Of a DNA stretch of 64,000 bases, positions 37,623 through 47,996 are shown in pieces; within the stretch, counting starts at the first letter, position 1; the number at the start of each line of letters is the position of its first letter. The notes under the pieces were generated by a model that was given only the letters and a program-made list of their open reading frames with translations, searched no databases and was not told the DNA's origin. The position numbers were made by a program, and so were the translations under genes. Source of the DNA: Spirochaetales bacterium (GTDB lineage Bacteria > Spirochaetota > Spirochaetia > Treponematales > Treponemataceae); contig QKEL01000012.1 in the NCBI GenBank assembly GCA_003252395.1, positions 124,001 through 188,000 on the forward strand, in the 5' to 3' direction.

Positions 37623-38855
37623 TCAGGCTTCCCCGCCTTCGGGCACGACCCTGAGGTAGCGCCGGCGGCCGATTCGCAACACGAGCCCTTCGGCGGGGAC
37701 CGTTGCCGTCGCGAGGGAGAGGCGGGCTTCCGTCACGCGTTCCGTTCCCGCGAATACCGCCCCTTCCCGGACGAGCCGCCGCGCCTCGCTCGTGGAAGAA
37801 ACGAGGCCGCCCGCGCGGAGGGCGCCGGGGATATCCATGCCGGTCCGCAGCGTGACGCTCGGCATGGAATCCGGTTCCTCGCCGCGGGAAAACCGGCTTT
37901 CCCAGGCGGCCCGGGCGCGAATGGCGCGTTCCTCCCCGTTCAGCTTTTCCACGATCCGGGTCGCGAGGCCGAGTTTGAGGTCACGGGGGTTTCCGCCGCG
38001 CTCTATCCTTTCCGCCGCCTCCTTCCGCGCTTCCGGAGACTCGAGGAGGACCAGGGCGAGGTACTGGTCGATTTGGGAATCGGCGATGGACATGAGGCGG
38101 GCGAATTGCTCTTCCGCATCGCAGGCGACGGGTATGTCGTTTCCCAGGGACTTGGACATTTTGCGGCCGTCGAGCCCGTTTAGGAGGGGCACGAGCAGGG
38201 CGCACTGGCTTTCCATGCCGCGGTCCCGCATGAGGTCCCGGCCGGAAAGGATGTTGAACTTCTGATCGGTGCCGCCGAGCTCCACGTCGGCGCCGACGAC
38301 CACCGAGTCGTAGGATTGGAGTATCGGGTAGAGAAGCTCGTGGATGCCCACGCGCGCGCCGCCCTCGTAGCGCTGCCGGAAGGTCTCGTGGGAGAGCATG
38401 TGGGCGAGGCTGAATGACCCCGCGAGGGAAAGGGTTTCGGCGAGGCTCAAGGCGCCGTACCATTCGCTTTGCCGTCGCATTTCCGCGCGCTCCCGGTCGA
38501 CCACCCGGAAGATCTGCTCCGCGTAGGTTTCCGCGTTTTCGCGGACCGCCTCCAGGGTCAGGGGCGGCCGTTCGGCGTTCCGTCCCGAGGGGTCGCCGAT
38601 CGAGGCCGTATAGTCGCCGATGACCAATACCGCGACGTGCCCCAGGTCCTGAAACTGCCTGAGCTTTCCGTAGGGCACCATGTGGCCCAGGTGCACGTTC
38701 TTCGAAGTGGGATCGATCCCGAGCTTGACCCGTAGCGGTATTCCCGTTCTCACGCTCCGCTCGAGTTTCGCGAGCAAGCCGTCCCGGGGCACGATTTCCT
38801 CGCACCCCCGCTCCAGAAGCGCCAATTGGCGCTCCGCCTCTTTTTTCGCGTCCAT
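37623..38855 (-). CDS. tyrS: Tyrosyl-tRNA synthetase
   Basis: 410-residue cytoplasmic enzyme charging tRNA-Tyr. Class I signatures: the HIGH motif as HLGH in DPTSKNVHLGHMV and KMSKS in DGRKMSKSLGND. The tyrosine pocket region YPILQSYDSVVVGADVELGG is intact, and a C-terminal S4-like RNA-binding domain (GGLVSSTSEARRLVREG) is present. The spacing between signatures fits the TyrZ-type subgroup. AAGGAGG precedes the ATG. The 250 nt upstream encode a Tyr-rich leader peptide and a strong hairpin, suggesting attenuation by tyrosine supply. Confidence 0.97.
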   Translation of the reverse strand: MDAKKEAERQLALLERGCEEIVPRDGLLAKLERSVRTGIPLRVKLGIDPTSKNVHLGHMVPYGKLRQFQDLGHVAVLVIGDYTASIGDPSGRNAERPPLTLEAVRENAETYAEQIFRVVDRERAEMRRQSEWYGALSLAETLSLAGSFSLAHMLSHETFRQRYEGGARVGIHELLYPILQSYDSVVVGADVELGGTDQKFNILSGRDLMRDRGMESQCALLVPLLNGLDGRKMSKSLGNDIPVACDAEEQFARLMSIADSQIDQYLALVLLESPEARKEAAERIERGGNPRDLKLGLATRIVEKLNGEERAIRARAAWESRFSRGEEPDSMPSVTLRTGMDIPGALRAGGLVSSTSEARRLVREGAVFAGTERVTEARLSLATATVPAEGLVLRIGRRRYLRVVPEGGEA

Positions 38856-38949
38856 TATTCCTCCTTTTCACGCGCGCCGAAACGCGAGCCCGGGGGACCC
38901 GCGAAACCGGGTTCGCCGCGAAGGGGGAAATACGGACGCAGGGCGCTTT

Positions 38950-39003
38950 AAAACGCGAAAGGCCCGCGACCGGCTCCCCCTCAGGGGAATCCGGCCGCGG
39001 GCC
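38950..39003 (-). terminator. Attenuator hairpin upstream of tyrS
   Basis: Minus-strand stem GGCCCGCG/CGCGGGCC (outer arms 39003-38996 and 38968-38961) with inner CCGG/CCGG and CCCC/GGGG steps, followed by TTTCGCGTTTT. It begins 20 nt after the leader-peptide stop. The U-tract is interrupted, so termination may be partial. Between it and the leader stop a second hairpin GCGGTAT-TCGT-ATGCCGC (about 39023-39006) can form. Confidence 0.6.
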
Positions 39004-39022
39004 TCGCGGCATACGAATACCG

Positions 39023-39103
39023 CTACTCCTTCGCGACGCCTCCGATGAGGGTCGAAGCGCAATAGCGGTAATAATATTTTTTCGCGGTAGATACGGCGTT
39101 CAT
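39023..39103 (-). CDS. Tyrosine-rich leader peptide of tyrS
   Basis: 26-codon frame reading MNAVSTAKKYYYRYCASTL then IGGVAKE and stop. Four of five consecutive codons are Tyr (TAT TAT TAC CGC TAT). A promoter TTGCGC-N18-TACACT ends 9 nt before the ATG; no ribosome site, as with the other leaderless genes here. The Tyr codon stretch contains TACCGCTA, which is complementary to TAGCGGTA overlapping the stop codon, so a ribosome stalled for lack of Tyr-tRNA would change the downstream folding. Nothing else explains the 301-nt space between the MBL gene and tyrS. Confidence 0.65.
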   Translation of the reverse strand: MNAVSTAKKYYYRYCASTLIGGVAKE

Positions 39104-39112
39104 CGTATTTTG

Positions 39113-39142
39113 AGTGTAGCGGATGCGGCGGGTTACGCGCAA
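39113..39142 (-). promoter_or_regulatory. Promoter of the tyrS leader
   Basis: TTGCGC (39142-39137), 18 nt, TACACT (39118-39113). Transcription would start about 2 nt before the leader-peptide ATG at 39103. Confidence 0.6.
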
Positions 39143-39156
39143 GGGGCTACAGCCCC

Positions 39157-40008
39157 CTAAAGCCGGATCGCCGTTCCGCATTCGCCCTTCGTCACCGCCG
39201 GGCCGAGCCTTTCCTTGAGCCACTCGATTTCCGCCTCACCCGTGCAGTGGCACGGGATAACGCGCCGTATTCCCGTTCGCTCGATATACTCAGCCGTCGC
39301 GCGGAGGCGTTCCTCGCCGACATTCGAAAGATGAAAGCCGCCGATTACCGCGTGTATTTCCCCGATTCCCGAAACCGCGCGTACGTATTCGCAGGTATTA
39401 ATGAATCCCGCGTGGCAGCAACCGGTCAGGATCGCGAGCCCGTCGGGCGTATCGATCCACAGGACGATTTCGTCCGGCACTTCGTCGGGGACGGTGCAGG
39501 AGGGATCCCCGAAAAGAAGCGGGCTTGGCGTCTCCAGGGGGTGCGCACGGGGAATGCGTCCGGCAAGGCGGATGCCGCCGGGGACGGAAGCCGCTTTTCC
39601 GAAGGGACGGAATTGGTCCCGGGGAAGGGCGGATATCGCGGCCCGGCTTTCGTCGGAAAGCGCGATGGCGCGGCACGCGCCCGTCCGGAGGCTATAGTGC
39701 TCCCGGAAGATTTCGGCGGAGGCGTGAACGCGCGTTGCGGGGTACCGATCGAGGTACGCCGCGAGCGCGTCGGTATGGTCGTAATGCCCGTGGCTCAAAA
39801 CCACGTCGCCCACCCGCGCGAGGTCGATTCCCGCCGCCGCCGCGTTCCCGAAGATCGCGCCCGTTCCGGTATCGAAGAGAATGGCCGACCCGCTTCCGTC
39901 AGTCCCCCGGGTCTCGACAAGCGCCGAATAGCCGTGCTCCGCCCGATAGGGCGGGGCCGCGGCATTGTCGGCGAGGATCGTGACCGTCACGTTTCCCGCT
40001 TCTTTCAT
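39157..40008 (-). CDS. MBL-fold metallohydrolase of the ORP-type cluster
   Basis: 283 residues of the metallo-beta-lactamase fold. Metal motif SHGHYDHTDAL, with further ligands in GCCHAGFIN and IGGFHL, and CHCTGE near the C-terminus. The pattern GCCHAGxxN and GGFHL is that of the ribofuranosylaminobenzene 5'-phosphate synthase-like branch, which is often linked to NifX/MinD clusters in anaerobes. Its reaction here is unknown. It is the last gene of the minus-strand operon, 4 nt after the NifX-like gene. A GGGGCT/AGCCCC hairpin (39143-39156) follows the stop. Confidence 0.88.
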   Translation of the reverse strand: MKEAGNVTVTILADNAAAPPYRAEHGYSALVETRGTDGSGSAILFDTGTGAIFGNAAAAGIDLARVGDVVLSHGHYDHTDALAAYLDRYPATRVHASAEIFREHYSLRTGACRAIALSDESRAAISALPRDQFRPFGKAASVPGGIRLAGRIPRAHPLETPSPLLFGDPSCTVPDEVPDEIVLWIDTPDGLAILTGCCHAGFINTCEYVRAVSGIGEIHAVIGGFHLSNVGEERLRATAEYIERTGIRRVIPCHCTGEAEIEWLKERLGPAVTKGECGTAIRL

Positions 40009-40012
40009 GGCA

Positions 40013-40354
40013 TCAATGGTCGCATCCGTTAACGCCGGTAATCAAGGTCCCGGCGAGAAAGTCCGCGACGATTTTCTCGGTTTTCTCGGCGGGCGCGCCG
40101 ACGCATACGGCGATTCCCCGCTCGGTAAAGAGGTCGCGCGCCCGGCTCCCCATTCCCCCCGCGACGATATGGGTCACGCCCTTTTCGCCGAGGAATTTCG
40201 GCAAGAGGCCCGGCTCGTGGGGCGGGGCGACGATGTAGTCCTTATTAACGACGGTCTTTCCGTCCTCGGCGATGTCGAAGGAATCGAACCCCGCGCAATG
40301 GCCGAAATGCTGGGTCAGCCGCCCTTCCGCAACGGGTACCGCGATCTTCATCAT
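40013..40354 (-). CDS. NifX/NifB C-terminal-like protein
   Basis: 113 residues of the dinitrogenase iron-molybdenum cofactor family (MKIAVPVAEGRLTQHFGHC, VTHIVAGGMGSRARDLF). The family includes proteins that hold metal clusters, among them the orange protein ORP. The ATG overlaps the mrp stop as ATGA, with AAGGAG 6 nt before it. Ends NGCDH, so it keeps a terminal Cys/His pair. No nitrogenase genes are present, so a role in nitrogen fixation is unlikely. One of three such paralogues in this operon. Confidence 0.9.
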   Translation of the reverse strand: MMKIAVPVAEGRLTQHFGHCAGFDSFDIAEDGKTVVNKDYIVAPPHEPGLLPKFLGEKGVTHIVAGGMGSRARDLFTERGIAVCVGAPAEKTEKIVADFLAGTLITGVNGCDH

Positions 40355-41131
40355 AAAAGGCTCCTTGTAATCTCGTTATATAGGTCGCTCACCGGCGACT
40401 CCTTGAATTTCAGAACGTAGGGAGTGCCGGAATCGCCGGCCTCGCCGATGGCGGGATCGAGCGGCAGGGAGCCGAGAAACGGCACGCCGTATTCCTCCGC
40501 GAGCCGCTTGCCGCCCCCCCGCTTGAAGACATAGGTAATCTTCCCGCATTCGGGACACACGAAGCCGGACATGTTTTCGACGACGCCGGCGACCGGCAGG
40601 CCAAGCTGCTTGCAGAAATTGATGGACTTGCTCACGTCGATCGCCGCGACTTCCTGCGGCGTCGTGACGACGATCGCCCCGTCGGCGTTCCCGAGGAGCT
40701 GAATGACCGACAGCGGCTCGTCTCCCGTCCCGGGAGGGCAATCGACGACGAGGCAATCGAGCTCGCCCCATTCGACTTCTTCCAGGAATTGCTTGATCAC
40801 GCCGTTCTTCATCGGGCCGCGCCAGATTACCGGGGCGTCGGGCGATTGGAGCATGAAGCCGATCGACATTACCTTCAGGTTGCCGAGTTCCGGTATCCCG
40901 GCAGGCAGCATCTTCCCGCCGATCGCCTCGAGCCGGCCGTTCCCAAGGCCGAGCATCGTCGGCACGCTCGGACCGTGAATGTCCACGTCGAGAAGCCCGA
41001 CGCGCTTGCCCCGCAGGGCGAGACTCGCGGCGAGGTTCACCGCCACCGTGCTTTTCCCGACGCCGCCCTTCCCCGACATGACGATATACTTCTTCGCCAC
41101 GCCGTCCATCTTTACCGTTTCGATTGACATA
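40351..41131 (-). CDS. mrp: Mrp/NBP35-type iron-sulfur carrier ATPase
   Basis: 259 residues from ATG 41131 (GGAG 7 nt upstream); the gene starts 20 nt inside the preceding one. Deviant Walker A MSGKGGVGKSTVAVNL, DVDIHGPSVPTMLGL, and the cysteine pair in FVCPECGKITYVF that bridges a 4Fe-4S cluster in the dimer. Mrp proteins pass Fe-S clusters to targets. In Desulfovibrio the orange-protein complex includes an Mrp-type ATPase, so it probably serves the NifX-like proteins here. Confidence 0.93.
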
Positions 41132-42029
41132 TCTTCTCCCATATTCCGCCGAGTATCGACGGCATGTTTTGCTCGCCGCTTCCGCCGCTTTCGCAATATT
41201 CGATCACGCTCTTTCCCTCGATCTGGGCCTTCGTCACGGCGCGGTCGTACGGGACCGTCCCGAGAAACGGCACCCCGTTCCGCGCGCACCAGGCCTCCGT
41301 TTCGTCCGCCATGGCCCGGTTGATGTCGGCCTTGTTCACGACGACCGAAAAGGGAATTTGGAAATGCCGCGCGAGGCCGGCGACGCGCTCAAGGTCATGT
41401 CGGCCGGACATCGTGGGTTCGGTCACGATCAGCGCCTCGTCGACGCCGGTGATCGAGGCGATGACCGGGCAGCCCGTGCCGGGAGACCCGTCCACGATGA
41501 TCCAGTCGGCCTTCGTTTCCCCCGCGAGCCGTTTCGCTTCCTTGCGGACGGTCGTCACGAGCTTGCCCGAGTTCTCCGCGCGCGCGTCGAGCGCCGCGTG
41601 GGCGAGCGGGCCGAACCGCGTGTCCGAAACGTACCATTCGCCGCATCGCCGGGGAACGAACTCGATCGCCTTTTCGGGGCAAAACCGGGCGCATACGCCG
41701 CAGCCCTCGCAAGAGCCCCCGTCGATCTCTATGCCCGATTCGCCGGAACGCCGTATCGCGCCGAACCGGCAGAGTTCCACGCACTTCGAGCGGCTTGCGT
41801 CCCCTCCCGTCGATATGCACCGCGTGGGATCGACGCGGGCGACGTGCCCGCTGATGAATTCGTTCCGATCTTTTATCGTCGGCGAAAGAATGAGGTGCAG
41901 GTCCGCGGCGTCCACGTCGCAGTCGGCCAAGACCGCGTTTCCGTGCCGGGCCGCCAGCGTCGCGAAGGCGGCCGTGAGGCTCGTCTTTCCGGTACCGCCC
42001 TTTCCGCTTATTATCGCGATTTCCTTCAT
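41112..42029 (-). CDS. MinD-superfamily ATPase with inserted ferredoxin domain (second copy)
   Basis: 305 residues from ATG 42029, overlapping the previous stop as ATGA. Walker A ISGKGGTGKTSL; an inserted ferredoxin with one complete motif CEGCGVCARFCPEKAIEF. The other is altered: the expected CxxCxxCxxxC is RCIS...SRSKCVELCRFGAI, where an insertion of about ten residues replaces one cysteine, so one cluster may be lost or changed. A P-loop partner to the next ATPase; such pairs accompany ORP-type NifX proteins. Confidence 0.92.
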   Translation of the reverse strand: MKEIAIISGKGGTGKTSLTAAFATLAARHGNAVLADCDVDAADLHLILSPTIKDRNEFISGHVARVDPTRCISTGGDASRSKCVELCRFGAIRRSGESGIEIDGGSCEGCGVCARFCPEKAIEFVPRRCGEWYVSDTRFGPLAHAALDARAENSGKLVTTVRKEAKRLAGETKADWIIVDGSPGTGCPVIASITGVDEALIVTEPTMSGRHDLERVAGLARHFQIPFSVVVNKADINRAMADETEAWCARNGVPFLGTVPYDRAVTKAQIEGKSVIEYCESGGSGEQNMPSILGGIWEKICQSKR

Positions 42030-42922
42030 CGGTCCCCTCCCCGTATCTCGCCGGCAATTACATACGCCAAAACGGCGAACTTCTTCCGGTATTCCGGAGC
42101 CGAGTCGATAAGCGGTTTTCCCTCCGAGTAACCTTCGGCGATGCGGCGGTCTTCGGGTATGCGCATGAGAACCCTGATGCCCTCCCCGGCGCAGTACGCC
42201 GCCACGCGGTCGTCGCCCGAATCGCACCGATTAATGATGACGCCGAACGGGATCCCCATCTTTCGGACGGTCTTCGCCGCGAGGTCAAGGTCATGGAGGC
42301 CGAAGGGCGTCGGTTCGGTCACGAGAACGATGAAGTCCGCGCCCGCGACGGCAGTGCCCATCGGACAGGACGTTCCCGGGGGGGAGTCGACGATCGTAAG
42401 CACGTCAGGGTCTCCGCGCCGTTCGTCCCCCCGCTCCGGTTTTGCCGCGCGAGACTTGACCGCCCGGATCAGCGGCGGCGACATCGCCTTTCCGATCGAG
42501 AGCAGGCCCTGAAAAAAAGCGAGGGGATAAAGGCCGTCGCGAAGAACCTCGCTTTCCGTTAGCGTGCCGATCGAGGACGGTTCCTCCCGAATCGCGCCAA
42601 CCGGGCACACGAGCGCGCAGCCGCCGCAGGAGTGGCACAGTTCGGGGAATATCATGACGGTCGTACCGATTCGCACGATCGCGTTGAACTCGCAAAACGA
42701 CGCGCACGCGCCGCACGAGGCGCATTTTGCCTCATCTATGACCGGCACGGGAACGGTAACCTCCCGTTCGCCGATATCCCGCCGCGAGAGAAAAATCCCC
42801 GCGTTCGGCTCTTCCACGTCGCAGTCGAGGAGCTGCGCCTTGCCCGGAAACGAGAGCGCGAGAGAAACCGATACGGTCGTTTTGCCCGTTCCGCCCTTGC
42901 CGGACGCGACGGCTATCCTCAT
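42026..42922 (-). CDS. MinD-superfamily ATPase with inserted ferredoxin domain (first copy)
   Basis: 298 residues from ATG 42922, which overlaps the NifX-like stop as ATGA; an in-frame TTG two codons upstream is less likely. Walker A ASGKGGTGKTTVSVSL and an insertion with two complete 4Fe-4S motifs, CASCGACASFCEFNAI and CHSCGGCALVCPVGAI. It ends next to the second ATPase copy, with which it probably forms a heterodimer. Role: ATP-driven electron or cluster transfer within the ORP-type complex (inference from family and context). Confidence 0.93.
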   Translation of the reverse strand: MRIAVASGKGGTGKTTVSVSLALSFPGKAQLLDCDVEEPNAGIFLSRRDIGEREVTVPVPVIDEAKCASCGACASFCEFNAIVRIGTTVMIFPELCHSCGGCALVCPVGAIREEPSSIGTLTESEVLRDGLYPLAFFQGLLSIGKAMSPPLIRAVKSRAAKPERGDERRGDPDVLTIVDSPPGTSCPMGTAVAGADFIVLVTEPTPFGLHDLDLAAKTVRKMGIPFGVIINRCDSGDDRVAAYCAGEGIRVLMRIPEDRRIAEGYSEGKPLIDSAPEYRKKFAVLAYVIAGEIRGGDR

Positions 42923-43281
42923 ACCCAATGCCCCTCCACGTCGGCCGCAACGATGGCCTTGAGGGTACCCGCGCGGAAGGCGGCGATCGCTTCCCGCACG
43001 GTCCCGCCCTCGGCGAGGAACACGGGTACCTTCGCGGCCTCCAGGACCTTGAAGGCTTTCGGCCCCGTGTGGCCGGTCACGAGCGCCCCGACGCCCGCGT
43101 TGACGACGTGCTGCGCCGCCTGGATTCCCGCGCCCTGCGCGGCCTCGAGGTTTTGCGTATTGTCCACGACGGCGAGCGCGTCGCCGTCAAGGTCGTAGAC
43201 GATAAACAGGGCGGCGCGCCCGAACCGTAGGTCAATCCGATCGTCGAGCGTCGGTCCCGATGAACTAATGGCGATTTTCAT
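42919..43281 (-). CDS. NifX-like protein, probable orange-protein homologue
   Basis: 120 residues from ATG 43281 (AAGGAG 8 nt upstream). The family core is MKIAISSSGPTLDDRIDLRFGR, VVDNTQNLEAAQGAGIQAAQ, GALVTGHTGPKAF; the arrangement ARFGRxxxF, DNxxN, GxGIQAAQ is that of the ORP/NifX proteins rather than nitrogenase NifX. In Desulfovibrio ORP binds an unusual Mo-Cu sulfide cluster. It is flanked by another NifX-like gene and the first MinD-type ATPase. Confidence 0.92.
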   Translation of the reverse strand: MKIAISSSGPTLDDRIDLRFGRAALFIVYDLDGDALAVVDNTQNLEAAQGAGIQAAQHVVNAGVGALVTGHTGPKAFKVLEAAKVPVFLAEGGTVREAIAAFRAGTLKAIVAADVEGHWV

Positions 43282-47876: not shown

Positions 47877-47932
47877 GCGCCTCAAAAAAGAAAAGCCCAC
47901 CGAATGGTGGGCTTTTCTTTTTTGAGGCGCCG
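47875..47932. terminator. Bidirectional terminator, 27-bp perfect palindrome
   Basis: Arms 47875-47901 and 47906-47932 are exact reverse complements around GAAT. The core GCCCACC/GGTGGGC is flanked by AAAAAAGAAAA and TTTTCTTTTTT, so it ends both thrS and the convergent tRNA-Cys transcript. The outer 8 bp on the right are the last bases of the tRNA gene. Confidence 0.92.
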
Positions 47933-47996
47933 ATCAGAATCGAACTGATGCATAAAGGTTTTGCAGACCTCTCCCTTACCGCTTGGGTACGGCGCC
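47925..47996 (-). tRNA. tRNA-Cys (anticodon GCA)
   Basis: 72 nt, minus strand. Acceptor stem GGCGCCG/CGGCGCC, discriminator U as expected for Cys, D-arm CCCAAGCGGTAAGGG, anticodon stem-loop GAGGT-CTGCAAA-ACCTT with anticodon GCA, T-arm ATCAG-TTCGATT-CTGAT. CCA is not encoded. Upstream lies a near-perfect palindrome GATAGCACATATGTACTATC (48003-48022). Confidence 0.96.

Follow-up and report, generated by a model that had tools for sequence, protein, structure and literature searches.

The 301-nt gap upstream of tyrS-2, a second tyrosyl-tRNA synthetase gene in a 3.4-Mb spirochete genome, in all likelihood harbors a real, conserved ribosome-mediated attenuator, judging from a leader frame and RNA pairings that are conserved among relatives. 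Very probably, this element acts on transcription, senses charged tRNA-Tyr, and thereby controls an auxiliary tyrS. Attenuation by ribosomes stalling at Tyr codons had been the interpretation offered in the original prediction, and the conserved frame and pairing support it. Comparison of the upstream regions of relatives, which that prediction had named as a possible refutation, found both Tyr-rich frames and pairing conserved, and the interpretation stood.

Within the window (the whole 64,000-nt stretch analyzed here), tyrS-2 occupies positions 37623–38855 on the minus strand and matches PF00579 at 1.7e-62, with HLGH and KMSKS motifs. It is 32% identical to the other tyrS of the same genome. 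Genes of that other type account for most tyrS matches in 59 relatives and are mostly 31–36% identical to tyrS-2; we therefore infer that the other tyrS is the housekeeping copy. A locus from a close relative is labelled Spirochaetales bacterium Spiro_09. The gap 5′ of tyrS-2 (39156–38856, minus strand) contains all of the attenuator elements, as well as the AAGGAGG Shine–Dalgarno sequence of tyrS-2 (38860–38866), which lies 83 nt past the T-rich tail of the leader terminator. At its upstream edge, in the stretch separating the upstream gene's stop codon from the leader −35, we noted by eye a perfect inverted repeat, GGGGCT GT AGCCCC (39143–39156), that could be an operator or a small terminator. 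The minus-strand genes further upstream (39157–42928) encode a metallo-beta-lactamase fold and PF02579, followed by what by eye are Mrp/ParA-like ATPases, a gene set that we take to resemble an operon of the orange-protein type.

The original prediction had described a promoter, a 26-codon frame with a run of Tyr codons, two hairpins, and complementarity between the Tyr codons and the stop region of the frame, all of which we recovered at the same coordinates. A −35-like hexamer, TTGCGC (39137–39142, minus strand), is separated by 18 nt from a −10-like hexamer, TACACT (39113–39118, minus strand), which ends 9 nt 5′ of the leader start codon. The leader ORF itself (39023–39103, minus strand) consists of 26 codons and TAG, encodes MNAVSTAKKYYYRYCASTLIGGVAKE*, and has no Shine–Dalgarno site that we could see. 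Its putative regulatory codons, TAT TAT TAC CGC TAT (39062–39076, minus strand), specify Y10, Y11, Y12, R13, and Y14; among the 514 short frames of the window (12–40 codons), four Tyr in five residues are unique to this ORF.

The position of the promoter-like site suggests how translation of the leader begins. Judged by reading, all 13 leaders identified below have a −10-like hexamer that ends 6–9 nt ahead of the start codon. When each of the 13 was scanned from 60 nt before the frame to 40 nt after it, the best promoter-like site fell 6–9 nt 5′ of the start in 10, a placement reached in 1.5–4% of shuffles for each leader. For the remaining three (L004, L005, and L139), the hexamer is present by eye in the same place, yet another site outscores it. 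In the window, the promoter score as such is unremarkable, being matched by 46.5% of shuffles. Shine–Dalgarno-like letters precede the leader start in only one of the 13, namely L003, where AGGA lies within its −10. Transcription usually starts 6–8 nt past a −10 element; with the spacing seen here, the leader AUG would therefore be placed at the RNA 5′ end itself or no more than about 3 nt from it. Thus, the leader peptide is probably leaderless, as had been suggested for the window, and the promoter spacing supports this view.

Pairing analysis, folding, and alignment divide the window leader into four segments, all read on the minus strand. Segment 1 (39047–39070), the 5′ side of a predicted protector hairpin, overlaps the Tyr codons. 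Segment 2 (39018–39040) comprises the end of the leader ORF and its stop codon, and can form either the protector with segment 1 or the antiterminator with segment 3; within it, TAGCGGTA (39025–39018) is complementary to TACCGCTA (39070–39063) in segment 1. Segment 3 (38984–39003) and segment 4 (38961–38980) are the 5′ and 3′ arms of a GC-rich terminator hairpin that spans 39003–38961 and directly precedes a T-rich tail, TTTCGCGTTTT (38950–38960). The protector, antiterminator, and terminator are mutually exclusive structures. The original prediction had left the alternative partner of the stop region open; our analysis points to the terminator 5′ arm as the partner of the frame end, and to the GCGGTAT/ATGCCGC hairpin reported between them (39006–39023) as the apical part of the antiterminator. 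The terminator hairpin has a folding energy of −49.8 kcal/mol (z −5.7; equalled by 0 of 200 shuffles), and the hairpin between the Tyr codons and the stop region has a z of −3.4 (equalled by 1 of 200). The antiterminator stretch of the window, folded alone, gave a z of −0.75 and beat only 154 of 200 shuffles; its best fold is shifted by two in register relative to the relatives, and of the 8 aligned antiterminator stem positions, only 5 are paired in the window row. A consensus terminator scan of the window did not list the leader terminator, and the T-tract of the window is interrupted.

These features suggest the following mechanism, in which the start site, the ribosome positions, and the direction of regulation are deduced from the sequence. 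Transcription would begin at the leader AUG or no more than about 3 nt from it, and because the transcript would start at or near this codon, the ribosome would load at the RNA 5′ end without a Shine–Dalgarno site. Segment 2 overlies the last codons and the stop, within the footprint of a terminating ribosome, and segment 1 overlies the Tyr codons, within the footprint of a stalled one. When Tyr-tRNA-Tyr is ample, the ribosome would reach UAG and cover segment 2, leaving segments 3 and 4 to pair as the terminator, which would prevent transcription of tyrS. When tRNA-Tyr is uncharged, the ribosome would stall at codons 10–14 and cover segment 1, releasing segment 2; free segment 2 would then pair with the 5′ arm of the terminator, and polymerase would consequently continue into tyrS. 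If the leader is not translated at all, the protector hairpin (1:2) would form and leave the terminator intact. The likely role of tyrS-2 would be that of a backup synthetase for failed charging of tRNA-Tyr, whether through starvation or through an inhibitor of the first enzyme.

We then asked how this arrangement is distributed. We searched for tyrS among 59 relatives and among genomes of the family (274), the phylum (392), the order (390), and a sister family (23); genes were assigned to the tyrS-2 class at E values up to 1e-60 in one search and up to 1e-55 in another, with a gene found in two pieces counted once. Fifteen loci of this class were found in the order, and 13 of them, including the window, share the Tyr leader layout. 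Eight belong to lineage 1 (L001, which is the window, L002–L006, L008, and L139) and five, all with a leader, to lineage 2 (L141–L145), whose tyrS is 31–40% identical to that of lineage 1. The two loci without a leader, L007 and L140, carry 38% identical tyrS and both come from one other genus. Compared with its seven close relatives, tyrS-2 of the window is 48–69% identical to six full-length copies and 74% identical, over 156 residues, to one broken copy. A Tyr-rich frame with an adjoining −10 was found at the window tyrS-2, at these seven relatives, and at all five lineage 2 loci. The 13 leader frames have 20–27 codons with two to five Tyr codons, and all end in UAG. The first Tyr is codon 10 in all eight lineage 1 leaders and codon 11 in all five of lineage 2; residues 2–9 are hardly conserved. 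In every leader a terminator starts no more than about 30 nt past the stop, as established by folding for 11 and by sequence and arm pairing for the other two. We also observed that the match to the tyrS-2 of genome G050 (L008:1501–2378) is split near residue 150, not far from the end of a contig, into two overlapping pieces, which may reflect a frameshift, a pseudogene, or an assembly error.

Genes other than the auxiliary tyrS served as a comparison. A Tyr run with a terminator was found upstream of none of the 20 housekeeping tyrS loci (22 in total) that have 450 nt of upstream sequence, where two short chance frames with two Tyr were present. Housekeeping tyrS copies from the leader-carrying genomes likewise showed no leader (0 of 8 uncut copies and 0 of 2 copies cut by contig ends). 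These ten copies were part of a scan of 23 loci (10 housekeeping tyrS, 9 trpS-like, and 4 trpE-like), in which starts were taken from the family match, trpS-like genes were named by exclusion, and the upstream position is uncertain for four loci cut by contig ends; none of the 23 combined a terminator with a leader enriched in the cognate amino acid. Two tyrS-2 loci included as positive controls were both detected. One trpS-like locus, L173, has an unrelated upstream frame with Phe-Phe. Within the genomes and loci searched, the Tyr-leader unit thus goes with auxiliary tyrS genes. A covariance model built from seven leaders matched in 7 of 390 genomes, each time at its own source leader, and also matched the terminators of five of these leaders on the opposite strand; the model does not amount to a census, because the L006 and lineage 2 leaders were not reported in the 390 genomes.

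To evaluate the pairings across species, seven lineage 1 leaders were aligned, leaving out L006 as too diverged. This alignment is gap-free over the last 18 codons; a MAFFT alignment, A3, is consistent with it over this region, and pairs were counted on A3. Run separately on three stretches, RNAalifold gave the protector, the antiterminator, and the terminator, and it found the antiterminator without being given it. In the protector, the Tyr codons and CTCC pair with GGAG and TAGCGG; in the antiterminator, GGC.YRCGR before the stop pairs with the 5′ arm of the terminator, enclosing the GCGGY:RCCGC hairpin. Counted on structures derived from the same seven sequences, the terminator is paired in 97.0% of 101 cells (a percentage reached by 0 of 500 shuffles), the protector in 87.4% of 119 cells (1 of 500), and the antiterminator in 87.9% of 91 cells (1 of 500). 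The GCGGTAT/ATGCCGC helix is paired in 100% of cells in the seven sequences, three of its five pairs being invariant. Structures slid by 1–3 columns pair in 27.5–54.2%.

Covariation, which related rows inflate and whose two-sided changes come mainly from the L003–L005 group, gave four two-sided pairs for the terminator, five for the protector, and three for the antiterminator, counts reached by 25, 30, and 28 of 500 shuffles, respectively. Counts of pair types were reached by 262 of 500 shuffles for the terminator, 77 for the protector, and 204 for the antiterminator, and the antiterminator slid by +3 retains an equal number of two-sided cells (4). Segments dealt among species did as well in 7 of 2000 trials for the terminator and in 41 of 2000 for both the antiterminator and the protector. 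Column shuffles of the 5′ side of the antiterminator did as well in 221 of 1000, and shuffles of the protector in 11 of 1000 by columns and in 57 of 1000 by whole codons. In duplex swaps, the values were 0–1 of 20000 for the terminator, 5–6% for the protector, and 8–13% for the antiterminator. As for its controls, pair 1:3 was weaker than swapped pairs and the unused pair 2:4 reached 7–16%; because of the latter value, the swap test fails to single out the antiterminator. Among the 10 of 13 leaders given to a test by synonymous recoding, the protector was favored over its recodings at below 10% in three (L001, L003, and L139). With everything 5′ of frame nt 53 masked, the best folds of all eight lineage 1 leaders used part of the 5′ arm of the terminator. 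L006, L143, and L145 fit the detailed pairing poorly. Single-sequence energetics were also considered as proof of the antiterminator and rejected, since dinucleotide shuffles of this GC-rich sequence were equally strong. Taken together, the antiterminator is the weakest of the three structures.

A strong terminator in every leader, together with an antiterminator that is not above chance in single sequences, would suit a constitutive terminator whose leader merely couples transcription to translation without sensing an amino acid, or simply the terminator of the upstream gene. We give such explanations little credence: they leave unexplained why Tyr stands at codon 10 or 11 in all 13 leaders and why a Tyr leader is absent from the scanned housekeeping tyrS, trpS-like, and trpE-like loci, and the terminator is separated from the upstream gene by a promoter-like site. 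Regulation could alternatively depend on the peptide, by a nascent-chain arrest of the TnaC kind in which the ribosome would halt at UAG once the peptide, whose end is conserved, has bound tyrosine or an inhibitor. The shared UAG stop and the Gly-Gly near the peptide end in seven of the eight lineage 1 leaders (Arg-Gly-Gly in four) point in this direction. Nevertheless, the C-termini in all five lineage 2 leaders are unrelated (PPHRV, PPHHREP, AYRD, PDRG, and ITGK), yet the Tyr codons, the spacing, and the terminator stay. Moreover, the window has the Gly-Gly displaced by one codon, the GGA GGC codons that encode it take part in the RNA pairing, and a ribosome held at the stop would favor the terminator, the wrong sign for induction by Tyr starvation. 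Arrest by the peptide is therefore very unlikely in our judgment.

T-boxes are a usual control of tyrS in Firmicutes, and a T-box or another riboswitch might govern the terminator, with the Tyr codons being incidental or a specifier. Tyrosine T-boxes are also named in PMC1262725. Against this, each of 13 loci has two to five Tyr codons within a frame whose start and stop are fixed, and we regard control by such an element as exceedingly improbable: neither a T-box nor any other credible Rfam element was found at E values up to 5 in 38700–39400. At gathering score, Rfam returned one tRNA and nothing else in the whole window, and no T-box in any of the 20 loci covered among the 80 named ones (nearly all from other phyla, L093 being from Spirochaetales). 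The tRNA gene of the window (47925–47996; 62.3 bits) has the anticodon loop CUGCAAA and, by eye, is a Cys tRNA (GCA).

Codon-dependent sensing of charged tRNA-Tyr, the explanation that we prefer, is attenuation of a known kind. Classical ribosome-mediated attenuators are of the E. coli trp, his, and pheST leader type. The tyrS-2 leader resembles them in its ORF with clustered codons for the amino acid being sensed, its alternating 1:2, 2:3, and 3:4 segments, its intrinsic terminator before the structural gene, and, as in pheST, its synthetase target. Unlike them, it involves tyrosine and tyrS, belongs to Spirochaetota, and has a start codon 6–9 nt past the −10 with no evident Shine–Dalgarno site. 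Vecchione and Sello are said to have described, in 2010, an attenuator of an auxiliary trpS in Streptomyces. Streptomyces trpS and leuS with attenuators are reported, and pheST is named among attenuated synthetase genes, in the accessible portion of PMC1262725. These Streptomyces cases share with tyrS-2 the leader-peptide attenuation of a synthetase gene, an extra copy in the case of the auxiliary trpS, whereas they concern other amino acids and another phylum, and the same portion does not mention a leaderless start. Also similar in outline, as described in PMC2965389, are the hisS*/hisZ paralogues of bacilli with His leader peptides: the synthetase paralogue has a leader-peptide attenuator and the other copy does not, outside Proteobacteria and Actinobacteria, where, ermC apart, its authors knew of none shown before. 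Unlike tyrS-2, these are histidine systems of Firmicutes, and the likeness is one of description. His attenuators in further Firmicutes appear in the available part of PMC9413887.

For the leaderless start, the nearest counterparts are the leaderless poly-Cys short ORFs that act as attenuators in mycobacteria (Canestrari 2020, as cited in the available parts of PMC9031893 and PMC13236596), which, like the probably leaderless leader of tyrS-2, are short ORFs rich in the sensed amino acid. According to the same parts, they control downstream translation with no terminator switch, sense cysteine, and belong to Actinobacteria; control of that type was not found here, as a terminator is present and the tyrS Shine–Dalgarno sequence lies well past its tail. 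The original prediction had known of no description for a tyrS target or with an apparently leaderless leader peptide. The first part holds for the literature searched, mostly open-access papers, in which we recognized no Tyr leader peptide before tyrS and no leader-peptide attenuation in Spirochaetota; the second does not, given the mycobacterial Cys ORFs described in the portions of those papers available. The terms "leader peptide" and "leaderless" are absent from the accessible text of a Borrelia 3′-end map (PMC10319736), and the parts of PMC4833913, PMC5397173, and PMC9094748 at hand add nothing further on Tyr leaders or Spirochaetota attenuation. Neither tyrS as a target, nor the phylum, nor a leaderless leader preceding a terminator turned up in this limited literature.

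We lean, with modest confidence, towards a broader reading, in which these loci represent a recurrent class of Spirochaetota attenuators with leaderless leaders, where polymerase would set the entry of the ribosome and Tyr codons at position 10 or 11 would time the ribosome against the hairpins. As the two tyrS lineages are 31–40% identical and their peptide ends are unrelated, the arrangement would have either arisen twice or kept its codons and pairing alone. On this reading, tyrosine attenuation would be described here for the first time, as would ribosome-mediated attenuation of transcription in any member of the phylum. If true, codon-stalling attenuation would extend to tyrosine, tyrS, and Spirochaetota; an auxiliary synthetase would be kept behind a charging sensor, with the housekeeping copy lacking one; and the leaderless start would offer a simple model for synchrony between ribosome and polymerase without a Shine–Dalgarno site.

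Finally, we scanned 350 nt upstream of the 80 named loci and found leaders that looked convincing only at L043 and L031, the rest reading as chance frames. L031 comes from the same genome as L004. L043 (L043:2651–3000) is a tyrS from a Gracilibacteria-labelled contig that shares 46% identity with the query and falls among hits from Chloroflexota; its Tyr leader, MIQQQSYYCTYASYHTG*, is accompanied by a Shine–Dalgarno-like AGGAGG and a terminator-like hairpin. Tyr attenuation may therefore exist outside Spirochaetota too, in a form that is not leaderless.
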